64,000 nt of DNA from Setaria digitata (lineage: Eukaryota > Nematoda > Chromadorea > Rhabditida > Setariidae). A program made the position numbers and the translations under genes. Of this stretch, positions 18,261 to 61,547 are shown piece by piece; the first letter of the stretch is position 1; each line of letters starts with the position of its first letter. The notes under the pieces were generated by a model. The model was given only the letters and a program-made list of their open reading frames with translations. It ran no database searches and was not told the DNA's origin. The DNA is taken from assembly GCA_003640385.1 (NCBI GenBank), contig RCAB01000109.1:1-64000 (forward strand), given 5' to 3'.

Positions 18261-18994
18261 TCAAGTACATAATTGTTTGCTAGGCCTTAAAGGCCGCCTT
18301 TTATTGGTGCATAAATGAAACCGCGACAGTGCCCTATTCAAGTTAGCAATTTCCATAGCTGATGAATGATTTTCATCTTCTTGGGACTGCAACACTTCCT
18401 AAAATTTATAATCATTTGATTTTATTTATGCTGTCTGTTGAACAAAAAAAAAACTCCATATTTAAATTCAAGTTGTTCTACTCAAATTTAAATTTTTGAT
18501 GGAAAAACATATTCGCTGGATATAATATGATTCAAAGGACAAATTAGCAAACATTGAAAAAGTTTCTAAGATTCTACATGTTCCATGCAGTTTTATTTCA
18601 GTCTAATCTTGCTTCCTAACTGATCTTTAAGTGACCAGTCATACTGATAAATTAATTGGTAAGATGAAACCCTCGTCCGAACCTGTAGTGACATGATATA
18701 ATCCATGATAAGATTGATAAGCTCCAGTTCTGAACATTGTATAACATTATGGTCATAGGGTAGCATGCGACGTAATTTAGCAATTGTCCGCTTGTGTTCA
18801 CGCCGTTGCCACGCCATTTTACGCATGCGACTACTTTGCAGTGGTACTTCGGAAAGCTTAGACTGTTTGCATTTGGATGTTTGCGATGAAGAAGACAGCG
18901 GTGACGTTGAAGATGACATTGCAGGTGGTGGAGACGTGGACGTAGACGTTATTTGCATCGATGGTGACAACGTGGGTAATAGTGATGGCTTCAT
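18261..18994 (-). CDS. Id-like helix-loop-helix protein (paralogue 1), two exons
   Basis: Exon 1 is 18994-18683 (104 codons) and exon 2 is 18398-18261 (45 codons plus stop), joined in phase 0; the protein has 149 residues. Residues 1-55 are Ser/Thr/Pro-rich. The HLH covers about residues 63-104: a basic, helix-forming stretch (QRREHKRTIAKLRRMLP), a loop, and helix 2 (LELINLIMDYIMSLQ). Spacing to helix 1 resembles Id/emc proteins rather than DNA-binding bHLH factors, because the canonical basic block ending ~10 residues before the Leu-Arg of helix 1 is missing. The tail after the intron (EVLQSQEDENHSS...) is short. The expected role is to dimerise with bHLH factors and block or modify their DNA binding. 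This is the most divergent of the three local paralogues, and its loop is unlike the others. It could also be a degenerate bHLH; I am fairly sure of the fold, less of the subfamily. Confidence 0.75.
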
Positions 18995-20081
18995 CGTAAA
19001 TACCTAAATTTAAAACAATTTCATTAAAGTAAGAAATCTTTCTGAATACTACATGGCAACACGCTGATAATAGCATTTTATAATAATTTAAGGGAAGCAG
19101 TCAAAAAAAATAAGCCAAATAATTCTTTTATTGTCGAATATATATTACGTAAGCCATTTAAAACTCATGCTGCATGAACTGAATCAATTTATCAAAATGT
19201 TTTCAACGCCATAAGATCTTGGCTTCTTATTCGATTACGTATGGGATCAAAAATGTTTGAGTAAATAATAAAACATGAAAGATATTTCGAAGCAATTACC
19301 ATCTCTTAATCTAACGCAACTTATTATTCCATATCCGTTTTAATTAAAGAAAAAAAGACAAACGACTAATGAAATAGTTTGACGATTCGGAATACCAGAT
19401 TACCGGATTACGCTTTCCAGAAGGGATGAAGAAACAACCGAACATCAATCGCTACAGTGAGCTGTTTGCTTCCTGTAACGAACTTCTCGAGATGGATCAA
19501 CGCCCCTCAATTCGACCTTTGCATTTCTGTTCTTCAGCAGCCACGCCCGAATTGTCGTGACGAATCCGTCAAGCAACAGTGCAATCACTTAAAATCAAAT
19601 TTTAATGAGTTTATCGACAAATTTTAATTTTCATTCAAGGACTCATTATAAAAGGTGCTGCATAAAATTAATTGAAATATATGAAAGGTATAACTATTTG
19701 GTGACACGAGCAAATGATTGGATTTGCCATATGAGTTTGTAAAAATAAGAATTATGTAAATGCAAAACTAAACCACAGTTTTTTAAACTACTAGAGTTAA
19801 GGAAGGCTTAAAAACTATTCAACTTTTAGTTTGAAAAATTTAATTAAGCTTTATAAAGATGAAAAAGAAATCGTTGAATAAAAAAGAAGAGTTGAATAAA
19901 ATTGATCAGATATAATATTAATGGTGCAGAAGTTAATTTTTCAAACTTATGTATTTGTAAATATGGAAAGGTCGCAGATTAAAAGAGAAATATGATTAGA
20001 AGTAAGGCGAAGGTCAGTGATATAAATGAGGCTGAAATGAGTGCGAGGTCATTTGTGTCCATTATCAAATGCACAGGTATG

Positions 20082-20107
20082 CAGCTGTCAACCGGAAGCA
20101 TCACCTG
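20082..20107. promoter_or_regulatory. E-box pair CAGCTG / CACCTG, 20 bp apart
   Basis: CAGCTG at 20082-20087 and CACCTG at 20102-20107 lie about 1.1 kb upstream of the start codon of the HLH gene at 18994 (-). The same two hexamers in the same order and spacing occur upstream of the second HLH gene (28025 and 28045). Whether this is functional is inference. Confidence 0.3.
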
Positions 20108-23100
20108 GAAGGCTTCGAGTGTTAGTTTGGTTGGCTATCAGTAAATAAAAGCTTGTTGCAAAGTTTGCTTCCTAATAAGGAAATGACTTGGCTGATGCAC
20201 AAATAAAATAAGTTAAACAGATACGGGAGGACTATTAGCATAACATTAATGTTTGTTCTAAGCAAGTCCAGCGCTGTTTCCAACGACCACTTATAGCAAG
20301 AGTAAAACTTTCCAACTTAAGACACATAGTTACTTAAAGCACAACACCTCTCTGTTCGCAAACATTTTATGCAAATTTAAAAAAACAAAAAAGCCACCAA
20401 AAATTAGTCATTTCGATAATTAATGAGAGCACCATGTAGCATGATAGATTGGTGTGTGCACGTGGCATATATTTCTTGTGAACGGTTGAATTCAAAGTAT
20501 AACTGATCCCTAAAAGGAAAGTTTGTGGTGACTTGAAGTACTTGTTGATGAACAAAATGATGGTCGGTACAGGTACTTTGATGTTTGTTTGCTTTTAACA
20601 ATCCAAACTCTTTCCTCTTCCTCTCTCCCTTTCTCTCTTCATTTCTGGATGAGGTAAACACCTGAATACTCGAGATCAATATTAATATTAAGCACTCTTC
20701 CAGATGGTGCCTTACAACCTTTGGTAATACCGACTTCATTCCACTCCATTCCTACACAGAGCCGACCGGTCCTTCTGGTAATTAGCCTACTGAACAAACA
20801 TTTCATTGGCCACATTGCAACAGAAAAACTTTCAGAGCAATCTTTGAAATTCTCAAGGAGTCAATAATTAATTTGAATATTTCCACTTTATAATTAAAAT
20901 ATGTGCAGCAGAAATGTATTAAGGCCAAGAAGTGTGCGCCAGATGGATAGCAGTAGCAGTAACAGGAGCAGAAGCTTCTGGCCAATGTTGTGCAGCTGTT
21001 GGTCTTCCGATACGAGCTGCTTATCATCTGCTCTGCCTATCAAATACTCCAGATGTGCGTGTGTGCCTCACTACTTGTTAAACATCCTGATTTCACGGCT
21101 GTTTATCAGTCATTTATTCCTCTCTTCAAAAAGTTTAAGCTTAGGCCAGCATAGTTTCAATAATCTCAACTTTTTTGTAGCTTGCAGTTAAGTTGAAGGA
21201 AATAGCACTGAGTGAGAAGTGAATGAATCGCGTAAAGTTTGAAGCTATCAGCAATAAGATATGGCGTTGCAGAAAGAAGCTGTTCTCTTTCATTTGATCC
21301 GCTGAAAAGAAGTAATACTTTGGTTTTAAGATTCACGGCTCTCTGCGTGACAGAATACAACAGCGTTGTTTCTGACACATACTGCGAACATGGATGAGAA
21401 TCACCGTACCTACGCCTAAAACAAAACAAAAAATCAGCAAAACTATTTCGTCTGCTGTCCATCCATAAATTGCTTGCAATCCGTAATTGCAAATAAAATG
21501 TCACCGGAATTAAATCAGTTGCTCCAAGAGATATTCTTCCTTGCCTGTCTTATCCCAAATGTCTTTTCGGCATTACACATCTACGTAAAGGAGGCTTTCG
21601 AAGACAGTGGGTGTTATAATTAACGCAGGTGTCCAAATGGGTTAACAGAAGGAGAAGGCTCTTGTTTTTAGGATGACGTCTTTGCGGCTCTGATTCACAC
21701 TAGACACTATAAATGGCCAGGTGCTATCTAGTGCTCAAGCTTAAGCTTTAGTATAATACATATCTTCTAGACCAGCTGTACCAGTTTGCGCACATTCACA
21801 AAGCCACACGTTTTCACTATTCAGTCATTAAACAAGTTAATGTATACTTTAAAAAAGAATAAAAATGTAGTGACAGTTTGTCATTTAACATCTTATCAAT
21901 AAACTTTAATAAAATAATCATCATTTAATACATTTATCATCGATATGAATGCAAAAATACCATTACTAATAATAGTAAATAAGCTGATTAGTGTGTGGAA
22001 GGCGGTTCGAGAGTAAGGATTAATGGATATTGTCGAGAACTGGCTAGTATACTTTCCGATATTCATTCTATCATTCTAATTTGCCAGAATCATTCTATTG
22101 TGTGTTGGTTATTCCGCGGGATGCTGAAGGACAGTGATGCAGTAATCAGTGATTCGGGCTTCTTCATCTCAACAAGTAAATCCACCTGGAACCTTTTGTT
22201 GCCACACATTATCCGTGGCCTATTATTAGAGACAACAGGAGGGATGAACCATATCTCTTCGTGTACTACGGCTACTGTGATTAAGGGCTTTTTTTTCGTC
22301 TTTTTTGAACGTCCGCTATTTATTGATATCAAAGCCGCCCTTTTTATGGGAAATCTATGGCTATATTCAAGGCCAACTTAATATCTCTGCATATATAAAC
22401 ATGTAATTAATAAATTTGGTTCAGGTGGGAACACAGAACACTTCTGGATTAATCTTTATGGAAGAGGCTTAAGTGAAAAATGGATGAAAAAGATGATGGA
22501 ATTTAAGTCATCCTAATTGGGACCGAAAAGAATTTTTCGTTTCTTTCCTAATTCTGCAAAATGGAAATATATTTGATTGGAATATGCCGCTTTAGCTGCT
22601 GGTAGCAAATTTATATTTTTCAAATAATGTGTGAGCTAATTAAAGTGAGAATCCCAATGGTTCCGAAAGCGATAACCTTGGAATCCTTTTGATTAAATTT
22701 TGGTCCGTGCGGTACTCTCTCTTTTCCTTCTTACGGTACTAGTGGAATTAAAATTGGTATACTCTGAACCGGTTTCTTTGCGGGGACTACCGAGAAAGTA
22801 TCACTGTGTATGTCCTTGATCGGTACATTTGTTTATGGGAATATAATTATAGAAGCAGCCCGTAATTGTTCAGCAGATTTAAAATAATTTCTTAAATATT
22901 TTTATAAAACAACAATCTTCGACATGCTACAGTCGCGGTTACGGTAAATGCTTTGATTAACAAAACTTTTCTTGTACTCTCGAATTTGTGGTTTAAAAAT
23001 GGACTCGAACTATGTCATAATGCACTATTATTTGTATGGGCTGAACTAGTTTCAGTCTTATCACTTGTTTATCAAAGATTGATTCATTAATCAGACATCT

Positions 23101-23443
23101 TATATAGAGCTGAAAGACAACTCCTACTTTTTATATTGAATTTTATGAAATCTAAGCATAACTCATTTGAAATAAATACTTTTTCAACCGACTAATTTAA
23201 TCTAAATATTCAAAAATATGTTTTCTTGCGATTTTTTTGAAAAGTTTGAAAGAGATTAACATGAGAATTATGATACAAATGATGTTCATGGTATAATTTC
23301 CTGTTCAGTTCTTATCATTAATCATTTTAAGCTTACATTGTACATTCTCGTTATACTTACATAAAAGATCTTTTTATTCGCTGGTCAATTAATTTTATTT
23401 AGTTGCCAAAAAATGTCCGACCATGATTATTCATTATTGGAAT

Positions 23444-23449
23444 AAAAAA
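23444..23449 (-). terminator. Pol III terminator of tRNA-Val
   Basis: Six consecutive T on the minus strand start 8 bases after the tRNA discriminator base, the usual Pol III stop signal. Confidence 0.7.
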
Positions 23450-23456
23450 CTGGGTC

Positions 23457-23529
23457 GGGTCTTGGCCGGGTTCGAACCGGCGACCTTCTGCGTGTGAAGC
23501 AGACGTGATAGCCACTACACCACAAGACC
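23457..23529 (-). tRNA. tRNA-Val (anticodon CAC)
   Basis: The minus strand folds into a full cloverleaf. The acceptor stem GGTCTTG pairs with CAAGACC. The anticodon stem TCTGC/GCAGA encloses the loop TTCACAC, giving anticodon CAC (reads GTG). The T arm is GCCGG-TTCGAAC-CCGGC. The discriminator base would be C at 23457. The internal A box (TGGTGTAGTGG) and B box (GGTTCGAACCC) fit Pol III consensus, and no intron is present. A run of six T on the transcribed strand (plus positions 23444-23449) just downstream should act as the Pol III terminator. No other tRNA was seen nearby. Confidence 0.95.
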
Positions 23530-26312
23530 TAGTCCTTCCATTTAATTTCTTAGATGATTAATTTAAGTTTAAATTAAAAAAAAATTTTCAGTCAGTGAAA
23601 GCTTTCTTGAAATCGTAAAGAAGTGAGTGATTGGCAAGGTCAACAGTGCCATTGGCTCTAATAAATTATACGAAAAATCGTCAGGCTCTCCATTTTCACC
23701 TTGAACTTTCTGTTATTTTGTTATGCAAATTTTTTGCTCGTCTTATGAAAAAAGGATAAAAAGAAATGCTGAAAGTTTTTTTTTATGCATATATTTAGCA
23801 GTTTAGGACAACAAACACATGAGAAGTGCTCGAATAATTGCAAATTAGGGGAAAATTCTTCATTTCTGTTGCTGAGAGAAGTTTGTAAGCCTACTTTTCC
23901 TCAATTTTTGCTCTTATCCATTCCTGTTATGCATTTCGGATCTTTATTTGTGGGTATTGAAAAGTAAGTCACTGCACAGAGTTCATTCTTGATGAACAAA
24001 AAAGGAAGTTTTAAAAATTTAATTATCGGGTGCAAACGAATGGTTTGATCGAAGTTTTCGTGGATTCATCTGCTTGGATAAATCCTGTAAAAGGGAAACA
24101 GAATCCATAAGGCAGATTTTATGGGGCCCGGTCCTTCACGATTCCACTTTCGGTCTGCTACACTCTAAGATAAGGGTTATTCAAAAAAAGAACTATGGTA
24201 ATAATAATAGTATAATAATGATCGTTATAGAAATGATCATCATGTGCCGAATATAACAAACACATGGCCAAAAAAGCATAACAGATGCCGCATTGGCCGA
24301 ATAGTCCGAATCCTCTTTACTTTACCGCACAAAGCCGCCTATTATTGAAGTACCCTTTTGTAAGTCATCTCATTTATTTGAGAAAAGCACTCAAAAGGGA
24401 GTGGTAACTGAGGAGAATTTCAGGTCGCATTTAGAGTTCAGGAGGATTCGAAGCAAAGCACAGTCACAGAAGTACATCTCTGTCGCAAATATTTGTTGTT
24501 TTGACCCATTTTAGAGTTGACAATTTTAGCTGCGAGTCAAATTTACAGATCTATCAGTTCTCTTCATTACAAGCAATCTTCTAAGGTAAATCTTTTAAAT
24601 TTAAACAAACGAGTATAAATAAAAATTGCCATCTATATGAGAAACATTTTTATATCAAAAAGTGATGAGGTCCTAAAATGAAAAATGAAAAAATGAAAAA
24701 ATGAAAAATGAAATGAAAATGAAATCAAAAATGAAATCAAAAAATGAAATCAAAAATGAAAAAAGTGAGGTCCTAAAAAATGTACTGGATAATTAGCATA
24801 ATTATGAGAGGTGAAAATGAAAGTTGCACAAGCAGCAATGATTTTCAGAATGAGGTGCACTTTTATTCTTTCAAACATTCCATTTCTAATTTCTTTCATC
24901 TTATTGCAATAAATGCTTCATCCCTTTGTGAACTCTGAGACCTCCCATAATTGTCCCGACACACACGGCAATTACTGATTTCTTATCTCAAGCAAACATA
25001 TCCTTTATCACTGTCATGCAGCTTCCTTATCTCAAATATCCTTATATTATAATGAGCATCCTTTCATCGAGCATTTTGTTGAAAGATTGAAATAGTTATA
25101 AATGATCAAATATTTTCGAAAACTTTTCCTATCATAATTCTCTAAATTAATGAAAGTTTCAGGGATTGTGTTACATTATTTTTTTTTCATTTGTGATACT
25201 TAAATTTGGTTTCAAATTTAAATTCTAGAAGTGAATTTAAATTGATACTTGAACTAAACCTACAGATTCAATTCCTCCGCAACACTTACAATGACAAATA
25301 CTTTTTGGATATCTTCTGAAAAAAATTAGTCACTACTTCTAGGCTCTGTTATTCATTCTGGAATGGGCTTGGTCTAGTCTTGGCTTTCCTAGATGAACAG
25401 GAGGCTTCACGGATCTGGTGTCAGATGTATATAAGCAAGGGACATCTGGTTCTGCTACAAAATCAATGGCCATACGAAATATATAATGCCTGCGACAGCT
25501 GCTCTTCCTTTTTGCTTCATCATATAGCTAACGAACTGACCCTCTTAGATATATACACACACAATTTGAGCCTAGTTTTTAGAGGCCACAAACTAACTGG
25601 GCTTAGGTCTGGCCAAACGCAAATGATTACCCAGATATGAAAAGTACCAATGACAAATTACTTTCGTACTTTTTCTTCCTTTTCTGACTCAGCCCATACA
25701 TACCAAAGGGAGTTTGGATTCAAGCGCACGTAACAGACATAGTAATGTTAATTCTTGATGCATAAAATTTGAGAATTTTTAATTCATCAGGGACATGAAA
25801 TGCGGCAAACATTGAACCATTCTAATATTTGCATAAAAATTGTCTGTGGTGTATTAATTAGCTCATCTCCACATAGACGTAAGAGTATAATGTCTCTAAT
25901 ATAATCCAACTCAGAGTGATGCTATAATTTGAATTAATGATAAGGAACCAGACCAACGACAGTGATGTACATTGTTTCGCAGGTCAATCCTTCTGGAACC
26001 TACTTTTGTCACTGAAGAATTCTGTACATGAACGTCAGTGCTGGTCACTTTGTAAGTAGTTTACAGCAATGAAACGGAAAGCAAATACAGCAGAATACTC
26101 AACAGAGAAAACTTTAAACCCCATAATTAGACAGAATATTCGGCCTGAACCTAGAAACTCCAAGCTTACTTAATTCCCTGACATCTCAAGTCATCTCTGG
26201 CATGAACAACTCTACACCTCGAACTCTGTAGGGTTCCCATATGTTCTGAGCAGAAAATCATTAAGCTAAGGACACTTGAAATATATCAATTCATGCTGCT
26301 TACAGCTCGCAT
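23530..26312. other. Gene-poor AT-rich stretch
   Basis: No gene could be supported between the tRNA and the 3' region of the second HLH gene. Short open frames (for example 25380-25640 +) have no recognisable features. A purine-rich minisatellite lies inside (separate entry). Confidence 0.45.
24666..24776. repeat. ATGAAA-type minisatellite with matching flanks
   Basis: An irregular array of ATGAAAA, ATGAAAT and ATGAAATCAAAA units runs through this stretch. The array is bracketed by the same sequence, GAGGTCCTAAAA, at about 24666 and 24764, so the whole block looks like replication-slippage products between two copies of a short direct repeat. Confidence 0.75.
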
Positions 26313-26340
26313 CAGATGTCCAGCAGGTGTACACCAGGTG
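26313..26340. promoter_or_regulatory. Three E-boxes at 11-bp spacing
   Basis: CAGATG at 26313-26318, CAGGTG at 26324-26329 and CAGGTG at 26335-26340 are spaced exactly 11 and 11 bp, so they face the same side of the helix. They lie 782-809 bp beyond the stop of the HLH gene at 27122-27829 (-). This is a plausible bHLH-bound element; function is inferred. Confidence 0.4.
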
Positions 26341-27121
26341 TCAGTCCAATCTTATCGTACTAATTTACCAATTTTCGAAAACACTGAGTACTATCTTGCA
26401 TTATAGAGAAATAAATACTGACAAATTTAAATATTATAGTTTATTGGAAATGAACTGTGGCATTTTAAAAAGTGGTAAAAAATAACTTGTCAGCAACACA
26501 AAACCCGTAATATATTTTCAAGAACTCACAAATATCGCTATTTAGAATTTCGAAATGTCCAAAAGGAGGAAAAAGGTTCGAGAGCTTTTCTTGAACATTT
26601 CCTACAAAAATTACATACAGATGGGATTCGACCTTACCTTCATGCAAGCAGTAATCCTTAGGAATCAAATAAATTTTAAGATTCAAAAAAAATGTCTGAA
26701 GCAGAACAGAGAGCTCCTAAAAATTTAGAAAAATGAATTTACAATGAACACAACGAAAGGAACAACAAGAACGATACACGTCGACAAACCATTCATATTA
26801 AACGACAACATTTTGATCTTGAGACGGAACATGCGATTTAAGTTATATTCTGTGATATAAAAAAGGACTATAACAGCAATAATTACAGCTAATTTATTCA
26901 AAATTTTACGGGAATAACTATCACATAATGACAGAACGTGAAGGAATTCAAGTCCACAAATAGTATGCAGAAGGAATGACAATTCATTGCCGGAAGACGT
27001 AAAAGTAAAACGTGAAGAATATTCCGGATGAATTTAACGCCGAAATTAAATTCATTCAATCTCACCTAATAGAATGACGTAGTAGCACGGCAGGAAATGT
27101 CCAACCACCCACGTTTTTTTT

Positions 27122-27829
27122 TTATTGTGACTCAGATTCAAATTTCGGAATCTGAATATGTGGATTACTTTGTCGGCATTGAAAATCATTCTTGGTCGAG
27201 TATTCTTTGGTAGTGATGGATGTTGTATTAGTTGTGGTGGAGATCTTGGAGAACAAAAGCGATAAATCGGTAATTGATGGATTTTGTTTCAGTGGTATAG
27301 CAGTTGAAACCCGCGTTTCACCAGTACCAGAATCACCATCATTATCATTATCCACAATTTCCTGCAAAAGAACTTCTGAGATAATTTCTGGGAAATCTAC
27401 AGTGGAGAAGACTTGCATTTTTCTCTTGATTAAAGTCCAAAAATAGCCCTACGCAGGAACCTGATTTCCAAACTCTTTCCACAAAGAGTTCATCTTTCCA
27501 TCTTTCCACAACACGCATGATTTAGTGTAATTTCAGCCCCTATCCAAAAACTGTCATGAAACTAAAATTAATTTCAGTAAGGTACAGCTAGTGAGTATAA
27601 TCAGTACCTGTAAATCAGAAATATAATCAATGATGTACTGCAATAGTTCAAGTTGTGTCGTAGCACTTCGAGCATTAGGTACCATTGTTCGTAGTCTGTT
27701 CATTAGCTGATGTCGCTGACGTTGTTCACGTGACGCTTTCCCGATTCGACCCATACGGATTTGCGTGCTACCGTCGGATTCAGAACCGGACGAGACACTT
27801 GATGAAGATGGTGACACAAGCAGTCGCAT
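27122..27829 (-). CDS. Id-like helix-loop-helix protein (paralogue 2), two exons
   Basis: Exon 1 is 27829-27608 (74 codons) and exon 2 is 27361-27122 (79 codons plus stop), joined in phase 0 directly after helix 2; the protein has 153 residues. Residues 1-21 are Ser-rich. The HLH spans about residues 33-74: ASREQRQRHQLMNRLRTMVP, a loop, then helix 2 QLELLQYIIDYISDLQ. Helix 2 is very close to the Id/emc signature (LE-hydrophobic-LQ-x-VIDYI-x-DLQ). The basic residues sit inside helix 1 and do not form a standard E-box-reading basic region, so a dimerising regulator without specific DNA binding is the best guess. The second exon is acidic then Ser/Thr/Asn-rich with no known domain. The intron position matches the other two local HLH genes and, as I recall, that of vertebrate Id genes. 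The gene lies just downstream of a GC-richer promoter-like block with E-boxes. Confidence 0.82.
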
Positions 27830-27839
27830 CTTCCAGTTT

Positions 27840-28520
27840 CGACAAGAAGCGCAGAAAAAAATCCTCTTGCCAATTAAAGGACGTGAGGGCGAGACGGAAG
27901 TTAGCGCCTGGTAGCGCGTCGATTAAGTGCGATCGTTCTGGTGAAACAACCCGAAGGGACACACCCCTGCACCCCAGAGCTCCTCCCCGCGACTCACTAG
28001 TCCCACCCCAAGTTCAGATTAGAACAGCTGGCACTGTGCTGCAGCACCTGCTGTTTCCCGGTGGGCTCGGTCTGCGATGGGAAAGTGTTGTTGGATACAC
28101 GGAGAAGGGACTTTTCCCAGGCTCGAATTAGCATGCAAATGTGTGGTAGGTCGGAGACAATTGTTAAGCGTCTCGCACCGCCGGACACAGGAAACAGTGG
28201 CACCATGCATCTTTGGAAATGGGACGTGAGAAACTCGCCGTGGATCGTTTGCTGCACGTCCTTCTGGAGAAGACTCTTGGCCAAGCCGAACGCTTTGTGA
28301 GTGAAGGATGCTCGAAGAAATACGAACTACTAGCAGTACAGAAAATGCTCTTACTCTGATTTCATTGCGGGAACTTCCTTTACAAAGTATCAGCCAGATG
28401 TTATCAAGGCTCCTGATTTGCTGTGGATATCAGCGACGGATATCAAGAGCTACCGACGAGTTTCAGCGCTGTCGCAGCGGAACAGTTATTCCGGATTAGC
28501 ATGCTCAACAGCTGCTACGG
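27840..28520. promoter_or_regulatory. GC-richer promoter-like block upstream of HLH paralogue 2
   Basis: This stretch is visibly richer in G and C than the rest of the window and includes C-rich boxes (CACCCCTGCACCCC, CCCACCCC) that resemble KLF/Sp1 sites. Its E-boxes are CAGCTG at 28025-28030 and 28509-28514 and CACCTG at 28045-28050. It begins right at the start codon of the minus-strand HLH gene. Several overlapping open frames here follow from the base composition, not from genes. Confidence 0.5.
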
Positions 28521-28760
28521 TTTCGAAAAAGAGGACAAGAGGTAAAGGGCTTTTTGTCGGTATGTTTGGATTAAATGAACAATGAACATTTCTTGGCGCG
28601 GGCAGATGTTATTCGTTCTTGCTTGGCCCTCAGTGCGACATCATCGCTTGCATAACGGTGCGTACAAACAACACAGCTGTTACAATAATATACTTTGCAA
28701 ATGGTCCCGCAACTCTACTCCATCTGTTCCTTCCACAGTTATGTTGTGACTGAGGAAAAG

Positions 28761-28817
28761 CACTTCCTCGATGGGACTGTCGCCTGTCCCATTCTCTGGT
28801 GGCATTTCGAGGAAGTG
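28761..28817. repeat. Nested inverted repeat
   Basis: CACTTCCTCGA (28761-28771) is inverted as TCGAGGAAGTG (28807-28817). Between them, GGGAC (28773-28777) pairs with GTCCC (28786-28790). The outer arms are perfect over 11 bp and contain GGAAGTG, an ETS-type core. It lies about 0.95 kb upstream of HLH paralogue 2. Confidence 0.6.
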
Positions 28818-31800
28818 TCCTAAAGGAATGTCGAAATTATTCTCTCCGAAACATTGAGACAGTAAGATATGGATCCGAAGTCTATCATTGAAACGTTGCT
28901 TGATTGAGAATCACATGTACATATCTTAACTGTAATGACGTTTCAGCACATACTTTCAGTGCTTTGCTTTAAATTAAATGCTGATTTTTTTGGAAACTGT
29001 GAAACAAACAATATGTTGGACAAGAATTATTTTCATAAAAAAATGACAACACCATAACTAGTGAGAGAAACAGTAACCTTTTTGTTTACCTACTACAACT
29101 TCTCCCTTTATTTAATTATGTATTGAACTTTTCATACAAGCTTCGATTCAAATGCAAAATGTTTGCATGACTGAAATATTTTTCAAATTTCTAAAAAATC
29201 TGTGGAAATGCGAGAAAATAAACCAGATGGTCATATTGCAACAACAATATCATTAAGATAGATATAAGTTGAAGGAGGCTCAGATATATTCATTCATATG
29301 TCACCTGAGAAGTCTTTCTTTTTAGCACCTGTTGTAGGTAAGACTACTTCGGGATCTATTTACTTCAGTGATTGTATTTCATGAAGTAAGATTGAGAAAA
29401 TAGGAGCCCCCTGGGGTTTACCGAATCACTCCTTCATTCAGTGCTATATTTGACGAGTGAAGCAGGAGTACTTCAGGTCCTCTTCCTCACATTTGAAGGC
29501 TTCCAGTTGAAACATCAGTTCAAGGAAGGAAAAATAAACGAAAGACCGAAAGTAGCACATTATGGAGCGCACTGCGTACGGCGCAAACGATTATTTGTAC
29601 AACTTAGCATTTGGCCAATAAACAACGATTAGTATTGAGAGTAGTAACTGTTGCAGTGATAAATTGTTGAACATGATGCAAATAATAATGATATTGTGAC
29701 GATTGTGTAGTTCAAGATCTAGAATTTCTGGCTGAAAATTGTGAAACAAAAGTGGAACGATTTATAATTTATACGACTAAGTAATAACAACAAAGTATTG
29801 ATAATTGTCGTGTGCATTGATCGTAATAAAATAATTTACAAAAATAGTCATTGAAAATGTAGATTCCCCCCATCCCTTACCGTTTTTAATTTCAGGAGGT
29901 TTCAAGTGCTCAGTACACTATCGTAATAAGGTGAGAAAGCTATATCGGGGATTTTAGCGCACTTTATTAAAATTAAAATAGTTGCAGAAGTAAACTTATG
30001 AACTTCTGAATACCACAAGAGATGCCTTTGTTAGTCGGAAATTCCTTTCAAGTCTGAAATGGAAAGGGATAAGCCGACAGTGGTAATAATAACAAACGTA
30101 GCAGAGGGTTTGGGTGATGTAACCAACCTGAGGTTTGCGCCCCCAAGGGAACCACACTTCATCCTTTGCCGCCTCACAGCCATTGTTCACCAATTATCGT
30201 TCATTCCACGCAGGTGTTTCATCCTCCTCATCATGCACTAATAATAAAAAGATCCATCTGATCTGATCAGAGGATAACGAATTGTTCAACATTTATACCT
30301 TCCTGTTCCTTCTCTCAAGAAGTCAAACTTGATAGGTTTAGATGGTTTACTGAAATTAGTCTAATCAAGATTATAGAACTTTCCTTAACTGAGTATACTG
30401 ATAATTACAGTTTCTTAATGATTTTGCTGTAATACCGGAGTTGAACGACTCACTACTACAATTCCCTATTATAGATTAGATTTATCTTAAGTTCATTAAA
30501 GGTAAATTAATGAATTATGGAACTAGGCGTAAAACTTCAGAATAGCTAATTAATTCAGGATAAACCAAAGACAATCAAAAAATTAAAAATTCCATTAAAT
30601 AGACAATATGTAAAACTGGTTAGGTTGATGAATATGAGCTTACTATCTAAAGATATTTTGAGGGATAAAACCTGTTTATATTTCCCTACAAAAATAATTT
30701 TTTGGTGAGAAATTTTATGGCGTGCTACAACTAAATTTAAGAGATTATAAAATACAGTAAAATGCTTGAAATATTGAATTACTCATTAAATTTATTGATA
30801 ACTTTCTTTGCCAAATTCGTTAATAATTTCCTATATTCTCATCAGTTTAACAATGCTATCTTTTAAAGTCAGTTTTGTTATCGGTTACCTTTCATATCAG
30901 GTGATCATGCAGCAACTTTTTATATAAAATTATCGTACTGTTAGAAATTTTTCCAGTTAGAAGTGTTTTAGTTATCATATCTCTGTCCAGCAGATCGTTG
31001 ATCGAGCAGGAAAAAGGTCATCTTGAAGAAGATGTTTATAATGAACGGATATTGGTTATTTTTAAAAAATACAACATAAATTTGAAAAAATTTGTAGACA
31101 AGGGGTTTTTGACAGATCGAATTTGAAGTCTAAAAAGTTTTTATATCTAGTGGCTGTAAAGGGACTAAACAAATTTATTTTCAAAATAAGCAAACTAATA
31201 AGAAAACCAATAGAGAGAAGTAATGAGAGGATGAACTGATGAAACAGTAAGGTTAACGAGATAACAAAATCTTTATATTACAGTTGATTTAAACTTGACG
31301 CCACTCACAGTTGTTTTAATGCATTTTCAAATAACATTAGATACAAATATTAATATAAAGTTTGCAGGTGGATTGAAACTTTTTAGCAAATGCTATTATT
31401 TCATGAAGTAGTTGAAGTTTGCAGGCAAAGCTACAATTTGTTTGCTCCCATCTTGTCCGATGAAAAAAAAGACATTATGCAATATTCTATCATACATTCT
31501 GATCAACGAGTATTCTATTAAACACATCACATATCATGTGTCACTTTATGGCACCAGTCATTTGACTATTTGGCAGTCTCTATTAGGGAGTCCAAAAATA
31601 CGTATAATATTAGTAAGACTTCTAAGTGAAAAAGCGATGGTGGGATGTTTGTCCTCATTTTGCCAACGCCTGTCAAAGGTACACAATGCTCGAAAATGGA
31701 TCATTAATTAGTTTGTAGGCCCGCAAGTTTGTTGACATGGGAAAGTAGAAATTAACGAACGATTGGCTCTCTTTGCAAGAAGATTAGTTCACACTGATAC

Positions 31801-32149
31801 AATGTAAATGAAAGAACACTCAACTAATTAATGTATATTTGGTATAAACAAAATAAAACGAAACGAATTCCTTTGCTTTCTCATTCAGTGTTAAACTAAT
31901 CATTCAGTCATTTCTGCATTTTATTTACTTCATTTACGTTTTCATTCCGTAAACAAAAAAGAGAAATACTAAATCAACAACATCACAGATCAATTTCAAT
32001 GTTTTTTATCAGAAAGTAGACACGCTTTTTATTTGTCCTGAGAAAGAACCTTTCTGGAATTGCTCTTTCCAATTTTTACAGTTGAAATCTTCACAGTTTT
32101 TCAAAAATATAATAATAAATATGAGCAGCAAACATAATTTTCAAAAAAA

Positions 32150-32152
<3 letters not shown>

Positions 32153-32188
<36 letters not shown>
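32153..32188. repeat. (TA)n microsatellite
   Basis: Uninterrupted TA dinucleotides run for 36 bases, about 18 units. Simple repeat in intergenic DNA. Confidence 0.95.
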
Positions 32189-32191
<3 letters not shown>

Positions 32192-34905
32192 GTAAGTTCG
32201 AGAATAAATGATATCACTCTGAAGATGCAACGTGAAATTTCCTTTTAGTTTTGTTAGAACGACAAAGCTTTATTTTCAAGTTTGTTTTCTTTTTTTGCTC
32301 ACTTCAAGTGTCTTGAGATTTAATTTGCAAAGCAATTGTTGTTTTCTTCAGTAGAAGCTGATAATTAAGCCATACTTTACCATACATACAATTTACATCT
32401 TAACCTTTGCTTGGATCACCTGTTGGATGACAGCTGATAAAAATATACGATAAATGAAAACATCTGTCACATTTTCATTGTTTAAGGGTACTTCGACTAC
32501 GTCACTTCAGTTAGCTTAAGCTTTCACTTATATTCTTTCTCAAGCTTTGTGAGCAAATAGACCATTCGTATCAGTTGTATTTAGTATACCACTATGACTG
32601 AGTTCAGTTGAGTTAATATATTCACAGTGGTATTTTTTTCTTCAAAAGATTGGTAATTGAAAAATGAAAATATTAATTGAATTCTACAATTATAGCATAA
32701 TTTCAAGGGAAAAAGGGAAATATTGTTGAAAAGAGAACAATTGTTGCTAAGATTTGTGTACAAATGCTGGGATGGGATACAGTTTACTTATTGTATTAGG
32801 GTTATTAAAAAACTTAAATAGAAAAAAGAAATTTGAAGCTGCAAACGTCCATTATTTTTCCACAGACAAACAAAAATACTTATTGCTGCAAATATTAAAG
32901 TGACGGAGGGTATACGATCACCCAATCATGTTTCAACTTCTTACTTCTATTTACTTGCTTGAATAGGAGCTTTCTTGGCATCACATCCTTTTAACTTGAG
33001 AAAATAATTTTCCTAAGCTTTTTCAAATAGTCTCCAAAATCTCCAAGGAAAATCTTCTACCTACGCGTCAAGTGGATCGTCTAATTCATTGCTATTATCA
33101 GTAACCAATGACTTAATATCACTCATATCAGATATGGATGTTATTCAAAAGGAATTGTCTCATTTTAAGCATTTCCCACAGCAATTTAGCAGCAAATCTT
33201 TCTAGTAAAAACAGATTTTTTTTCACATGGCTTCTAAAACGTTGCCGTGCAATGTTTCACCTGAAGTGTCGTTTTAGTATTTTAAATCTTTTGCAATTAA
33301 TTGGCAATGTTTAGAGTTATTTAATTTGCTTACATGAAGCTCTGCGCCATAAGTTATGAGAAACAATGTGGAATATTGGAGTACCATCGTTTTTCCTTTT
33401 TCATCCTAATCTTAAATAATAGATAACACTTCATTTATTTTTGCTGTGCCAAGCCAATTACGAAATCAGTGAGAACGAATGTATTCATTGGCTGCTGCAT
33501 ATAAGTGTTGAAGTAAAATGGTCCATAATAAAGTATAATTTGCCAGGCAACTAAGCTCGCATGTCTAAATTTAGTTATATGTTTTATGGCTCATTTGATT
33601 TGTTCGTTTCCAAGTTCCATTTTGTCCATTTTTTAGTTTCATTAACTAATTAATTTATTCGTTATGTTTTCCAGAATTTGCAAAATGCGAGCATTATTTA
33701 TAAGTATATTTTATGCACTTTCTGCTCCATTTAGCAATTCAGTGCTAAGTTTGATATCTGCTGACGAAATCTACAGGTGTAGCTAAAGGTAGCTGAGTGA
33801 AGAAAGGATACCGACTGATTGACAAGGTGGAGCTTAACGACCGGTTAATTGTCCATCAATTGATATTCTGCCATCGCAACAGATCCACCCATCCTTGCTT
33901 CCTCTTTCTGTTTTCTTGTCACATTACTTCATCTACCTTTTTTTATGGTGACGAGATGTTGGCCGAAATTCCGTTCTTACGAAACTGCTTACATGCCAAT
34001 AAATCTAGGGAACTTATGTTCATAATTAATAACAAATTTAGAAATTTTGGAAATCCCAAATTTTTTTTAACTTCATACTTAATAGCTTAATTTTTACTTG
34101 TATTACTTCATGGAAACTGTCTCATAGACAAATTATAGCCTGATTAAAAAATAAAACTGTGTCTTAATAATAAAGCTTTAGCAAGATGAAACTACACGCA
34201 AAATATTGTACTGGCTGAACCATTTATAATTTAGCTTAGGCTTTCTGTGAAATGATGACCTAGTAAGTAAAAAATTGCGGTCAGTTATTATAAAATCAAT
34301 GACATAATTGAAATTCTATCGTTAATTTCCAGTTTGATGTAAAAGAAGAAACAAATTTAAGTTGAAAACTGCAAAAGTAAATATTCATCTTTAATTAAGG
34401 GTCTTTCACTGATGGCATAAGAGTAATTAGCTACTAGCTGCTGGGCATTTTATCTTATGAGGCCAGAAATCAACTCTGTACTTGATGTATAACTAAATTT
34501 AACTCAAATTAACTCTACGCTTAATATATAACTAGATTTAACTCATTGTTGTTTCATTTATTTCACTATCCACTCTTTTATCCTTGTGTAATAACACTCA
34601 TAAAATTTTAACTTATCTGACTCTTAAAATTTTTGCTCGATAAATTCTTTTGTACAGGTCAGCTATCCATCTCTAAGCTAAATATTAAGCAGTTTTAAAT
34701 TTGATAATTTTCTGAGACTCTATTCACTCTCGAATATGTCCTGATCGAGAATGAGCAGTAAAATAGGTGGAAACAAGTAAATTAGTAAAATAATTATTAG
34801 ATAACTAAATTAAGAGTCAAAAAAGTGCTGCAACTGTGAATGTCTTTAACTGAACATTAAAATCTTTTTTGATTTTCCACTTGTATAATTTGCTGAAGAG
34901 TGTTT

Positions 34906-34961
34906 TTCAGTCAATGGGATAAAAATTCACANGAGTTCAGTCAATGGGATAAAAATTCACA
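34906..34961. repeat. Assembly seam: single N between 26-bp duplicates
   Basis: The 26 bases at 34906-34931 are repeated exactly at 34936-34961, separated by N (34932) and three bases. This is the pattern left when two overlapping contig ends are joined without merging. The duplication is probably not real DNA. Confidence 0.8.
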
Positions 34962-35904
34962 GGTACTGATGATCACCAGAATTATTGTTACTCTCATATC
35001 TGTTTAGGAGATGAACAGCTGAACTGAGTTTTCCGCCAGAAACTTCGTAAATAAAGATGACAATGTTTTAGCATTGGTTTGACTTTTATAAAGGAAATGA
35101 GAAGGAAGAAAATAATAGGTGAAGATGATAAGTCTAATATTTAAGCCTGATCCTATCACTCGCAGACAGACCCATCTCTTCCCCAGTTACACATGCAGCA
35201 GTATGTCTGGCCAAACATTTGCTAAGGAACGATGAATCTCTGGGCAGTTTGCTTAAGGTGTAAATCGCAATAAATATTCTTGAAACGTTCATCGTTGCGA
35301 ATGAATAGTTTTGTCTAAGATTTGGAAACTATTCATTTCGCTTTCGTAATTGATTGATCCCCCTAATTATGCTAATATTTGTCATCAGCGCCATCACTCC
35401 TGTTATTATTACTTTCATAATTATTAGGTCATGGGACAAATTAGGTAAAGTCACAAATGGCTAGTACGTACAGGTGAGAGTTTGTGACGAATTATTTCAC
35501 TCCAAATAACAAGCAGAAAAATTTCCACTTAGTATTTAATTGTCAGTTTGGAAGTGCTAAAGAAATGTTGGATGATGTAAAATTACATCTGTCCAATTAT
35601 GAAACACTCAATAGTACGTCTTTACACCTTTATTCGACGTAATTTTGGCTAATAATAGTTGCTTCTTAATAGTTTAGGATCAAATTTCACAATTGCTACT
35701 TTGATTTATCCTATTTTGACTGCTCCGTGATGGAGTCAGCAGCTCACATGTAAATGAATATGGGATCGAATGATTTTTCAAATAAAATTGGGGAGAAACT
35801 TCTAGGCACATTGTGGTAATTACAGAAGTCTACTTAGATTAATTTCTTTTTAAGAAGGAAAAGATTGTTGGAATGCTTTCGTTGGAAAGATCGTTGACAT
35901 TTAA

Positions 35905-35910
35905 TTTATT
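35905..35910 (-). promoter_or_regulatory. Likely poly(A) signal AATAAA of the orphan gene
   Basis: AATAAA on the minus strand lies about 33 bases after the TAG stop of the 195-residue ORF. Confidence 0.5.
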
Positions 35911-35942
35911 TATGCTTATATCTGTAACTTATCGAACATTAT

Positions 35943-36530
35943 CTAGAGGAAAAAAGGAAAGTTCATCAGCTGTTTTAATGATAAATCAGTAGTTGCTTTA
36001 TAGGGACAGCTGTGGCATCTGAGATTTCCCGTAGACATATGTGTGTTGAGAACAGGTACAAACAGAATGCTCTCTGTTAACCCCAATAATTTCCAAACAG
36101 ATGTCTCTCTGTCTGTGTGATAGAATTTTTTAAGAACATCTGATAGCAGTTTCAAATTTGCAAATTTATGAATGCTTTTAAATAAATCTTTTTGAAATTT
36201 TTTGCTTTTTACGGTAAGAAAGCGATGTGCATTAGCTCTTACTTCTACGTACATTGGTTGTTCGGTGCTGAAATTTACCGCTGAAAATGAAACCTGATCA
36301 TTGTTCTTATCAGCATTTCTTCCAAAGGATACTGAAAGACATCCAGTTGGATTGTTTTCTTTGCTACCTCTCTTGTTGTAGGCTAGTCCCGCTGTTGCGA
36401 GGTGTGAAACAGTTACCCCGCAGAAGACTGTAGAAACCGGAAAACCATTCTGAAAAGTTTGGAACTGATAAGAAGACCATTTAATGTTCCATCTAGAAAC
36501 TACATTGTAAGGCATCTTTTTGAAAAGCAT
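35943..36530 (-). CDS. Orphan single-exon protein of 195 residues
   Basis: The open frame runs 195 codons from ATG 36530 to TAG. At the base composition of the window a stop-free run this long is very unlikely by chance. A 3' splice-like TTTTAG ends two bases before the ATG, which fits a spliced-leader acceptor, and AATAAA lies on the minus strand just downstream (plus 35905-35910). I do not recognise the protein. It starts MLFKKMPYNVV, has no signal peptide or clear membrane helix, is rich in Lys/Asn/Ser, and has a CHSC motif near the C-terminus. It could be a fast-evolving lineage-specific gene or a remnant of a larger gene. No flanking exon was found. Confidence 0.55.
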   Translation of the reverse strand: MLFKKMPYNVVSRWNIKWSSYQFQTFQNGFPVSTVFCGVTVSHLATAGLAYNKRGSKENNPTGCLSVSFGRNADKNNDQVSFSAVNFSTEQPMYVEVRANAHRFLTVKSKKFQKDLFKSIHKFANLKLLSDVLKKFYHTDRETSVWKLLGLTESILFVPVLNTHMSTGNLRCHSCPYKATTDLSLKQLMNFPFFL

Positions 36531-36801
36531 TTCTAAAATTTTGCGTTATTATCGTTTATCTCACTTTACGTGAGTATGTTCATATTACTAGTGGCATATT
36601 GTAGTGATTATGATGATAGTAATGATAATAATATTTTGTTAAAGTTGCATCTGTTATGCAGATTGCGCGCATCGTAAAATATTATTAGGATCTTATAGGA
36701 GAGTTATTTCTTCTGTCTTTTGATAAATAAGGCAGACATCTGTGATACAGATACAGATTTAACTAAGTTTTTTCTGCGAGCAACTCTCAGGACGAAATGA
36801 A

Positions 36802-36822
36802 CAGCTGAGGGAGAAACAGCTG
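36802..36822. promoter_or_regulatory. CAGCTG pair upstream of HLH paralogue 3
   Basis: CAGCTG occurs at 36802-36807 and 36817-36822, about 1.4 kb upstream of the start codon at 38191 (+). A third CAGCTG is at 37768-37773. These are possible bHLH sites, by position only. Confidence 0.25.
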
Positions 36823-38190
36823 TCATCAAATCCTTCTGTTTGTCTCTTAGGGCTGCTTGGATCCTTGTCGTCCTCTCTATAGTACCATTTTCTTTTCGTG
36901 TGGAATAATAAGATTTTTAAAATACAATCTAGCCTGAAGATTGCAGCCTCACCGAATTGACTGCTGCAGAATAAAACTATTTTTATCTCTTATCTTTCCT
37001 CCAAGAAATTATCAAAATTGCGGGAAAGGCTTGTAACAATGATTAATGGTATTCAATCCCAAATCCGGCATCTAAAATATTTGCTTATTTATGGCACAGT
37101 CTTCAGAATCGACAAGCTATCAAAAATACCACTTCTGATGAGGTTGATTTAGACCTTGTAGTAAATGACGTGTGAGAGGAAATAAGACTGGTTCTTTTTC
37201 AACTTTTGTTCTTCCTTCTTCTGATCCTTTAAGGGATCTTTTGCCGAAACAAATAAATTGACGAGAATGAAAGGATTAAGTTACTCGAAAAAGAGGAAAG
37301 TTTCTAATCGGGTGACGATGCCAACTGCAGTTGTTTTGATATATCCAAGTCTCCCATAAAACATCCATTTGCATCTGTTGTTACTAACTCGTCTGAAATT
37401 AGTCTATCATATTTTTCTCAACTTATTTTTAGATTCTTCCTATTTTTGACTTAAATTTCCGAGAAAAGTTCACTCACTTGTCCTAATGAGTAGAGCGTAA
37501 TATTACTGGTGGAGAACTTCGAGAAAATTTCGTGTACATTTCATTTTAACTGCTAGGTTAATACCAAAAGAACTCAAGAATGACGAGCAGAGACTAAGAG
37601 GAAAGATTGAGTTAGTAATACTGAACATTTGAACTACTGATTCTTGAGTGAAAATGAATGGAATAGAAGATACTTTTAATTGTGGCCTTACTAATTTTAG
37701 CCAAGTGGATTTGTTATTGAGCGACTGAGCTACTAGGAGTTATAGAAAGCTAAGACGAAAATTATTTCAGCTGAAGAATCTAACTGTATTTGTCACGTTT
37801 TGAATAATGTTTTCTTCTTGGCCCAGTTGGTTAATGTATTGTATAAAATTCGTTTAACTTTATTTGCTCTTTTGCAGTTTGAAGAAAGTGAGAGCAAAAG
37901 GATTAATTAGCATTCTGTTGCCAAATAATTATTTGCTTTTTTCAAAATAGTCAGTATCAGTGAAGAAATTCTTACAAAACGGTCAATCACAAATTGAATC
38001 ATCTGAATCGAGGCATGTTTTAAGACAGATTTTAAACTTTTGAATTAAGATTTTAGATTTAAATTTGTAGGTGCATTGTTGAATTTGTGCAGTGAACTCA
38101 ACCAATACTGTTCCAGAAAATCTTTCAAATGCTGGGATCTCGATAACTTTTATAGCAGGATCAATATCTAATTAATCAGAATTATCAACA

Positions 38191-38762
38191 ATGGCAACAA
38201 AGCAAACAATCCGGTCAAGAAACACAAAAACTAGCAGACTGTTGAAAAGACGACGTGAACGAAAAAAAGTTCTAGCAGAGCTTCGTAAAATAGTTCCATT
38301 TGTTAATGAGCACACCCCATTGCTTGAATTACTGCAGAAGGTGATTGACTACATTACTGAACTTCAGGTACAGCTAATTTCCTCTTCAGTAGCTTCTTTT
38401 TGTGTTTATGAATCTTCAACTATTATTAAGCAGTTCATAAATTGAATAGAAAGGATCTAAGCAGATCTGCTTTGAAGATGACTTTTTAAAATGGTATTAT
38501 TTTATGATTATTAGTAACTTATTAGTGCCAGCAAGTGTCGGATAAATAAACTGAAATCGAAAGATCAGGGAAAGACCGAGAAAGAAATCAAGTCTTCACT
38601 GATATTTTCTCCTCGGAACTTCAGGAACTACTAAATAATTCCACTGTGTATGCTATCGAAAGTAAAGAAAATCTATCACCATGGAGAATAAATGAATCAG
38701 AATATAAACTAAATGCCAATCCTTACAACTACTGTTCATCACCGTTCACACGATCTATTTGA
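38191..38762 (+). CDS. Id-like helix-loop-helix protein (paralogue 3), two exons
   Basis: Exon 1 is 38191-38367 (59 codons) and exon 2 is 38625-38762 (45 codons plus stop), joined in phase 0; the protein has 104 residues, the smallest of the three. Residues 1-17 are Thr/Ser/Arg-rich. The HLH covers about residues 18-59: LLKRRRERKKVLAELRKIVP, a short loop, and helix 2 LLELLQKVIDYITELQ, which carries the VIDYI core typical of Id/emc. The basic cluster falls within helix 1, nearer the Leu-Arg pair than in a DNA-binding bHLH factor. The 45-residue tail has no domain; exon 2 is the same length (138 nt) as in paralogue 1. A 3' splice-like AATCAG 11 bases before the ATG could be a spliced-leader acceptor. 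The likely role is dimerisation with bHLH proteins. It lies on the opposite strand to the other two paralogues. Confidence 0.8.
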
Positions 38763-45842: not shown

Positions 45843-48800
45843 ATGATAATTGCAGAATCAGAAGATTCAGATGAATTTGTGGATGCAATCAATAAAACAT
45901 TCGAGGAAAGTGACTCTGACGTTTATGGTGATGATGTTCAATTTGTTTCTGGTGAAAATGACGATTATGTGGATGAAGAAACAATTGGGATAGATGCTAA
46001 ATTCCATGAACTTGGTTTAATGCTTAATTCTACACTAGCAAGCGATTATGACGGCGCTAACGCAGCACGCTTGAATGCTCATTTTTTGTGAGTTATTATT
46101 CAATGTTCACTTAATCAGAGATGATCTCAAGCAGTCTTTCCAAGAATAAAGCATGGCGTGAGTAGCTAATTTCTATTGTTTAAATATGTTTTGCATTTTC
46201 TGCTACGAACTGCATTCATTCTTTTTTTTTTTTCTCTTTTATTAATACTGGATTTCTTNTGAACTGCATTCTCCTACCAACCATTCATTCTTTTTTTTTT
46301 TCTCTTTTATTAATACTGGATTTCTTTACAGCTAGAAGTTCAGAAATAATTTTCAACTTTGAATATGTGTGTATCTTTTGGACGGCTCAATGATTTTGCT
46401 GCAAATAGGTTATACTTGGATTTTGGAGATGGAGAATGTTTTATGAATGGAATTTACATTCACATACACACACACAGCACATATACTGAACAGGCTTCAT
46501 TTCTTTCCTCTCCTCAATGCTTTTTTTCTTTTAAATCTTTATCTTTAGCAATGACTGGGCAGTCTTATTGGAAAAGCAGGCAATTGAACTTGGTTTCCCT
46601 GATCTTGAAGAACTGTTGAAGTCTGAATACATGAAGGATTTTGTCGAGCAAAAATCATCAGTTAACGGTGTCGCCGTTTACAGAGCAGTTTCTAAACTAG
46701 CTAATGAACATATTCTTCGACGAGTAGCTGACTGCAAATTGAGTGAGAATCAGAAGTGAATTTTTATCGTGCTGTATAAGAAATCGAATAATATTGCACT
46801 GAGAAATATATTTCTGTGAACTTATTAATAAATGTGACTTTTCGAGATCTCCTGGGAATAAGTTTTAGGACGGACATTTCTTGTGAATGCTTTTTTTGAA
46901 TATATGAATAAGCAGGAATTAGTATAAACTGCTTCCCCGTATTATAAGTTTTGTAATTTTCAGAGCTGAGAAGCGAAGAATACAGAGATTGATGGAGCTG
47001 AAAAACCCAGAAAATGCTGGAACTTTCCTCGAGGTTATACCTTTCAGTTCTTTATGTTTGTTTCCTCCTTTTTTCATTGACAGTGTGAGGACGAATAGTA
47101 AGTTCAAGTTTACTTGGAATTCTTATCCTCTGAGAACATGGCTCAGAGTATCAAGGAGGTTTTATATTACATTTGCTGAAACTCGATGTAGATATCATTA
47201 ACGAAGTTTTCAAATTTCTGTTCAACTTTTTCCACTTTTTCTTTTTTTTTTTTTTTAAATCTCGGCAGTGCATTTAGGGAAAACGTCGAATTCTGCAAAT
47301 TTTATTTGATCTAAAAGCATATGAGAAAGAAGTTGATTATCAAACGATTCGGGACGAGTACATGAAACGTTATAATGTTAGCTTGAATGCTTCAGTAAGT
47401 ATTAATTTCGTTTTTACTAAGCAGTGGTTTATTAACATTTTCGTTATTCTGTCTTGTCATCCTTCCCTTGCTTTTCTGATTTTTATCTTAATTGCCTTTC
47501 AGAAATCTAGTGGATTATTTCAGGAACATCAACGGTTATTCATGAATAGATCGGCTTTGAAAAATTTCTGGCGTGCTTTTTATCGAGAAGTTATTTTAAC
47601 AAATAGCTGTCCCATTCATGTAAAACTCAGAAGTTCAGATGTAAAAAGTAGAAACTTTTTTTTTAATTTTTATTTACATTAAAATTAAGAATCAGGTGTT
47701 CTTACCGTTCTCTTGATGTGCTGCTTAGATGTTAGTTTTAAAAGACTGCTTAAATAAACGTCTTCATTGAATATTGAATTTCGATGTTAAATTAGTGATT
47801 GAAATTTTGTAGGTATATACATTTAAGCATGATTACGCATATTCTTTTTTTTTTTTGCATGATGGTTAATATTTTCAGTTCCAGAAGAAATAACAGAAGA
47901 TCTACATTTGTTAGCTGAAATCGATAAGATTGAACTCCCGACGTTTGCTTTGGAACACCAACTATCTATATCAGAAAACATAGCTAAAGGAAGTAGGATT
48001 TATTCACTCTTTGTTCTCCAAGTTCTTGTTTTCTGGTTGCTGATAAGTTACAATGTTTGTGCACTGCAAAAGCAATTGCTAGAATTTGGATAAGTTTAAA
48101 AGAGTGGATTATCAGCTAATTATAGTGCTTGTAAATTTAAGAAGATAGGTCTGTTTTTCAAATATGATTCCTGTTCAGAACTTGATTGTTGCCATTTCTC
48201 TTTTTATTTTAATATATGTTTGTTTGATTAATTTTTTTTTCCATACTTAGAGACCACCTTGCTATTGCAACATTGAGATTTGTTAGTTTACTAAGAAAAG
48301 CTTTTGTCAGAGCGCACATTGATCTTAATTTTATCCAGGAAGGATGGAATATTCTGAAGATCTAGTCGCCCCTGCTGGATATGCTTGTACTTTGAAGGTA
48401 ATAGCTCAAAAATCCTTTATATATCTGAAGAAATCGTCAAAAGTCTCAAATTTTACTGATGCATATCAATTCTTGAAGTGCTTAACTAATTTAACACTTT
48501 AATTCAGTGTTAAATTTACTTGAATTTAATTTAATGTTAAATTTACTAGCTCCTAGACTCTTTTTATAGACATTCATTCTAAAGAAAAAAATCATCATCA
48601 TCGCCAATATTATATATAGTATTTATCAATCCATATTAAGTATAATTGTTAAATGCGTTATGTATGGGTGTTGTCTATTTTTGAAATTATTTTGACACCT
48701 CCTCTTTTTAGAATAGGGAAATTAAGAAAAGTTACCATTTTAATTCAAGTTTGGAATTGAAGAACGTTTACAACTATATGTATATTCTTTTGTGTAGTGG

Positions 48801-61180: not shown

Positions 61181-61547
61181 AGTACTAATTATACTGATAT
61201 TAATAATAGAAGTTAAAAGATGAGTGCTAAATCCAGATTTACATATTATTTATTTCGATTAATGGCACATACAAAGCATGCTAAGTGGCGATAATTAAAA
61301 AGGTAAATGTAACCCAAGGACTGGCTTACTTCAAAACACATTAAGAAAAAAGGATAGCTGAATGAAACGCAATCAAAGTATCCCATATAAAAAGAATCAA
61401 CAAAAAGAATTGAAGTCATTCATGCTAGCTTTCTACTTCACACCCCAATCTTGACTTCTCAGTTCACTGAAATGTTTCTATGGCTAAATAATTCTATTTG
61501 ATTTTCAGGAGGAATACTCGATAGCAACACATCTGCAGATATTCAGA

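Follow-up and report, generated by a model that had tools for sequence, protein, structure and literature searches.

Three clustered, Id-like helix-loop-helix genes conserved in filarial nematodes

The first 64,000 nucleotides of contig RCAB01000109.1 in the genome assembly GCA_003640385.1 of the nematode Setaria digitata, hereafter the window, carry three short helix-loop-helix (HLH) genes, which we label G1, G2 and G3. This cluster is real and conserved in filariae, and has until now been annotated piecemeal. The best explanation of the whole is that the three genes are local paralogues whose products would act as non-DNA-binding partners that tie up the worm E protein, with descent from an Id/emc gene the likeliest, an account that we consider probably, though by no means certainly, right. 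The narrower proposition that filariae kept and triplicated a true Id/emc gene, and possess a conserved E-protein antagonist cluster with differing tails and a KEN degron in G3, is more tentative, and we regard it as possible rather than probable.

Rebuilding the gene structures from the raw sequence of the window gave two coding exons for each gene. G1, on the reverse strand, comprises exons 18994-18683 and 18398-18261 and encodes a product of 149 aa; G2, likewise on the reverse strand, comprises exons 27829-27608 and 27361-27122 (153 aa); and G3, on the forward strand, comprises exons 38191-38367 and 38625-38762 (104 aa). The rebuild and a reading of the HLH sites place the introns at 18399-18682 in G1 (after ..SLQ), 27362-27607 in G2 (after ..DLQ) and 38368-38624 in G3 (after ..ELQ). 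All three are GT..AG introns in phase 0 that split ..LQ/E.. at one common codon column. The sequence-only reading of this DNA had described three two-exon genes with these boundaries, coding for proteins of 104-153 residues, each with one HLH and an identical phase-0 intron after helix 2; the rebuild reproduced this exactly, with the proviso that upstream exons of G1 and G2 may exist. Orthologue alignments, taken together with the rebuild, indicate that the first exon of G1 encodes a Ser-rich N-terminus, a basic patch, helix 1, the loop and helix 2, and the second a conserved tail with LNRALS.FHL and KR(R/Q)PLR. Similarly, the first exon of G2 encodes an MRLL start, a Ser-rich stretch and a strongly conserved HLH, and the second an acidic linker followed by a KQNP(S/T)ITDLSLLFSKI block. 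In G3 the first exon encodes a basic extension, helix 1, loop and helix 2, as delineated by the rebuild, a Pfam HLH match and the predicted model of its Litomosoides orthologue; the second contains a KEN tripeptide (in KENLSP; 38664-38672, forward strand) that is kept in all seven G3 proteins having exon 2.

On the evidence of their sequences, G1-G3 are three paralogues that arose when a single HLH gene, its intron placed immediately behind helix 2, was duplicated locally. Pairwise protein scores among them are 98, 94 and 105, against best values of 58, 56 and 50 in 1000 shuffles each, and the HLH core alone gives 62, 79 and 87, against shuffle maxima of 43, 39 and 36. In a tree of 46 HLH domains over 59 columns the 14 rows representing G1-G3 form one clade with support of 100/95, and they do so again with 40 core columns (99/97). 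When each protein was searched against the whole 75.5-Mb assembly, with E up to 10, no HLH gene was matched beyond the query itself and the other two; several of these cross-matches are weak, ranging in E from 1.3e-4 to 0.23 (G3 to G2 1.3e-4, G3 to G1 0.008, G2 to G3 4.6e-4, G2 to G1 0.23, G1 to G3 0.002 and G1 to G2 0.07). A further candidate, L013, matched by G3 at E 0.03, was rejected, its translation showing no HLH. An HLH/Id profile, built with the G1-G3 sequences included, picked out the three genes in the six frames of the window (E 1e-24 to 2e-23) and gave no other match with E below 0.1. The common intron also marks the three as duplicates, since none of 20 other HLH sites read in this genome (19 plus the E protein) has GT at the codon boundary used by G1-G3; candidate donors of the form CAG/GT are displaced from it by one codon downstream in L001, by one upstream in L003 and by two downstream in the E protein. 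The clade, the shuffle scores and the shared intron all agree with the earlier suggestion of a local family of three diverged members. The same suggestion had invoked an ancient tandem duplication followed by inversion of one copy: the common origin stands, the duplication is probably older than the divergence between Setaria and the other filariae examined, and the opposite strand of G3 would fit a later inversion.

Database searches recovered relatives of G1 in ten named filarial species, of G2 in ten (Setaria digitata included) and of G3 in six, along with unnamed sequences. The named matches of G2 other than that of Setaria digitata are from filariae and show 63-78% identity. Contig sharing in these relatives was deduced from equal sizes of the records, contig names not being shown; it suggests that Loa loa (contig of 202,631 bases) and Cercopithifilaria johnstoni (211,328) carry all three genes on a single contig, and that pairs of them are together in Acanthocheilonema viteae, Litomosoides sigmodontis, Onchocerca flexuosa and Dirofilaria immitis (chromosome-sized in the last), with the Litomosoides G1 apparently on a different, short contig (16,852 bases). 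The G2 segment M49-Q74 has 23 invariant positions out of 26 across ten filarial proteins, with variable flanks, and every one of the 11 aligned G1 proteins keeps the tail block with KR(R/Q)PLR. A Setaria digitata UniRef entry matches G2 at 100% identity over 128 aa and begins at an internal Met (residue 26 here); the longer start of our model is supported by the fact that, among 12 other G2 sequences, 10 begin MR(L/F) at the same place, the other 2 extending upstream through it.

These genes appear to be Id-like, and a tie to the true Id genes is likely. In none of the 40 sequences of the three families, counted gap-free from helix 1, does the E9 column, which makes the E-box contact, hold a Glu. 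The helix-2 signature E(I/L)LQ.(V/I)IDYI..LQ is present in G2 and G3; against the Pfam HLH model G3 scores 22.9 bits, above the cut-off of 20.7, and G2 18.2, below it. In profile searches of the PDB both G2 and G3 match Id3 and Id1 ahead of any other protein, with a best E of 8e-4; Myf5 is among the G3 matches at E 0.004, ahead of Id2. The 59-column tree joins G1-G3 to Id/emc at 97/92 and nests them beside ID3 at 94/80.

Several observations weigh against this assignment, some of them concerning G1. It has no match to the Pfam HLH model, and two of its orthologues score 14.9 and 16.0 bits, below the cut-off; its provisional assignment as an HLH protein draws on its likeness to G2 and G3 and on a low-confidence model of a G1 orthologue. 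Its helix 2 deviates from the signature (ELINLIMDYIMSLQ), and its best PDB match is TAL1 (E 0.067), with ID2 next (0.12). Id proteins are not known to carry a basic patch before helix 1, and yet all 40 sequences have one there, its net charge being +3 to +7 over 14 residues; moreover, G2 and G3 have a loop that falls short of the one in Id and in G1 by two residues. Foldseek searches with two predicted models found no significant structural match. When a 40-aa Id2 fragment, admittedly a short query, was searched against the genome, it matched C334 first (4.5e-4), followed by G2 (0.044), C446 (0.086) and G3 (0.094), and C334 is an ordinary group A bHLH (basic HLH) gene. Most of the reference HLH domains in the trees were typed in and not drawn from database records. 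With 40 core columns and all rows the grouping of Id with G1-G3 is not recovered (approximately unbiased (AU) test, p 0.47), nor is that of G1 alone with Id (p 0.35), and the Id grouping stands at 60/86 for G2 alone and 71/89 for G3 alone; furthermore, AU tests reject none of six alternative groupings (p 0.15 to 0.39). In the four 40-column trees Id itself never forms a single clade (AU p 0.10-0.30), so the number of columns is simply small. The earlier claim of Id/emc identity, with the (V/I)IDYIxxLQ helix 2 as its hallmark and with profile search and phylogeny as the proposed checks, is thus sustained in part: the missing E9 Glu, the Id clade at 59 columns and, for G2 and G3, the hallmark helix and the Id proteins as nearest solved relatives agree with it, but G1 departs in its helix and in its nearest relative, the phylogenetic signal is weak or lost at 40 columns, and no alternative is rejected. 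The intron after helix 2, which had been named as a further hallmark, ties G1-G3 to one another but is a putative Id trait.

The genome encodes an E protein, a homologue of HLH-2/Daughterless (at G000:C217), with 65% identity to a human E47 reference fragment that was typed in. We propose that G1-G3 would dimerise through their HLH with this protein or its partners, and that the dimers, with G1-G3 apparently lacking a canonical basic region, would be unable to bind E-boxes, as with Id/Emc proteins. The tails might further set stability, as in the case of the putative KEN degron of G3, in place of the D-box found in vertebrate Id1, Id2 and Id4; this part of the model is weaker. The likeliest source of the three genes would be an ancestral Id/emc gene.

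Their origin could nevertheless be different. Along the nematode lineage, a group A bHLH gene may have been stripped of its basic region and then duplicated, in which case the likeness to Id would be convergent and G1-G3 would not be Id orthologues, though they would still be dominant-negative partners. AU tests do not reject trees in which G1-G3 join group A without Id (p 0.39), join ASCL1 (p 0.31) or join MYOD1 (p 0.15), and the persistence of the basic patch, the TAL1-first match of G1 and the first match of the Id2 fragment to a group A gene are all in keeping with such a history. The best 59-column tree and the Id-first matches of G2 and G3 argue in the other direction, and on balance we consider convergence rather unlikely.

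The positive patch, found as it is in all three families, also admits the interpretation that these are atypical DNA-binding bHLH proteins, whose basic helix makes a shifted contact with DNA, or one that does not involve an E-box, and which are repressors or activators themselves. The AlphaFold model of the Litomosoides G3 orthologue, in which helix 1 extends through the patch (residues 3-35, low confidence), would be compatible with this. However, the E9 column is devoid of Glu throughout, and the Glu that the patch does contain in G1 and G3 is displaced from the canonical register by six residues and should face away from the groove, which makes DNA binding of this kind improbable in our view. 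We consider it very improbable that G1-G3 are group E (Hes/REF-1-like) repressors that have lost their usual motifs: although a grouping with HES is not rejected (AU p 0.36), WRPW is found in none of the 40 sequences, some of which are incomplete models, the Pfam Orange domain has no match in the three window proteins or in five relatives, and in the best tree HES falls with group B rows, apart from G1-G3.

The two-exon description of G1 and G2 may be incomplete, because sequence upstream of their start codons resembles the models of relatives. Upstream of G1, a candidate and perhaps non-coding exon region at 19401-19550 (reverse strand) is similar to the extended N-terminus of the Onchocerca flexuosa model P0028 (tblastn, 36%, E 0.008, the value for a 10-kb search), but with stops and gaps here; it may perhaps be joined to the coding part at an acceptor-like AG just before 19003. 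Upstream of G2, a frame at 28019-28131 (reverse strand) reads SLGKV..PC..Q..AAQCQLF, which by eye looks like the extra N-terminal sequence in the Dirofilaria model P0018, and is perhaps a conserved leader or upstream exon. A tRNA-Val (CAC) gene lies between G1 and G2 at 23457-23529 (reverse strand). Elsewhere in the window, an open frame at 47278-47679 (forward strand) has a strong match to DUF7516 (E 1.4e-22), and another at 61488-62018 (forward strand) has a Cys/Gly-rich stretch (CGGCG..) but matches nothing in Pfam at an E of 0.1 or less. An exon at 7452-7799 (reverse strand) weakly matches a protein-kinase family (PF07714, at 18.1 bits under the cut-off), and is perhaps from the kinase-homology region of a receptor guanylyl cyclase.

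If our interpretation of the cluster as a set of Id-like E-protein antagonists is true, filariae own dedicated antagonists of the E protein, a driver of neuronal and gonadal fate in worms, and the notion of nematodes managing without Id proteins would need revision. C. elegans is not known to have a clear Id gene, which was the premise of the earlier suggestion. Its bHLH genes represent every one of the six groups, A to F, as stated in PMC11703107, and are described in PMC1828162 as a much derived set. Should the cluster be a true Id/emc triplication, Id-type sequestration of nematode E proteins would be ancestral and testable; were it convergent, it would be a case in which the basic region was dismantled while the dimerisation helices stayed nearly frozen, as in M49-Q74 of G2. 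The cluster also provides a defined gene set for working out when nematodes gained or lost Id. We see these findings as of interest for bHLH evolution and nematode development, if not startling; a search of open-licence papers found no description of filarial Id genes or of the conserved triplet.

Among known systems, the Id/Emc proteins (human ID1-4 and fly Emc) resemble G1-G3 in being short, in having a single HLH without Glu at the E-box contact column and, for G2 and G3, in a helix 2 of the form ELLQ.(V/I)IDYI..LQ. They differ in that G1-G3 carry the basic patch, that the G2 and G3 loop is the shorter one, that G1-G3 are clustered as a triplet, and that the intron of G1-G3 directly follows helix 2, whereas the introns of vertebrate ID1 and ID3 lie well downstream of it. 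One review describes inclusion or exclusion of intron 1 as altering the C-terminus of Id1 and Id3. Vertebrate Id1, Id2 and Id4 are described as having a C-terminal D-box for APC/C-Cdh1 (PMC5267474), whereas G3 has KEN and no strict RxxLxxxN D-box was seen in the three window proteins. Group A bHLH proteins (TAL1, MyoD/Myf5, Achaete-scute) share the HLH fold with G1-G3 and match them weakly, but keep the ERxR basic motif that G1-G3 are without. Names already given to filarial relatives vary: two Dirofilaria immitis entries, the G2 orthologue P0018 ('DNA-directed RNA polymerase subunit beta') and the G1 orthologue P0025 ('Achaete-scute'), are likely misnamed, and Brugia malayi Bm9420, the G2 orthologue with 68% identity over 88% of G2, bears the database name 'id3 protein, putative'.
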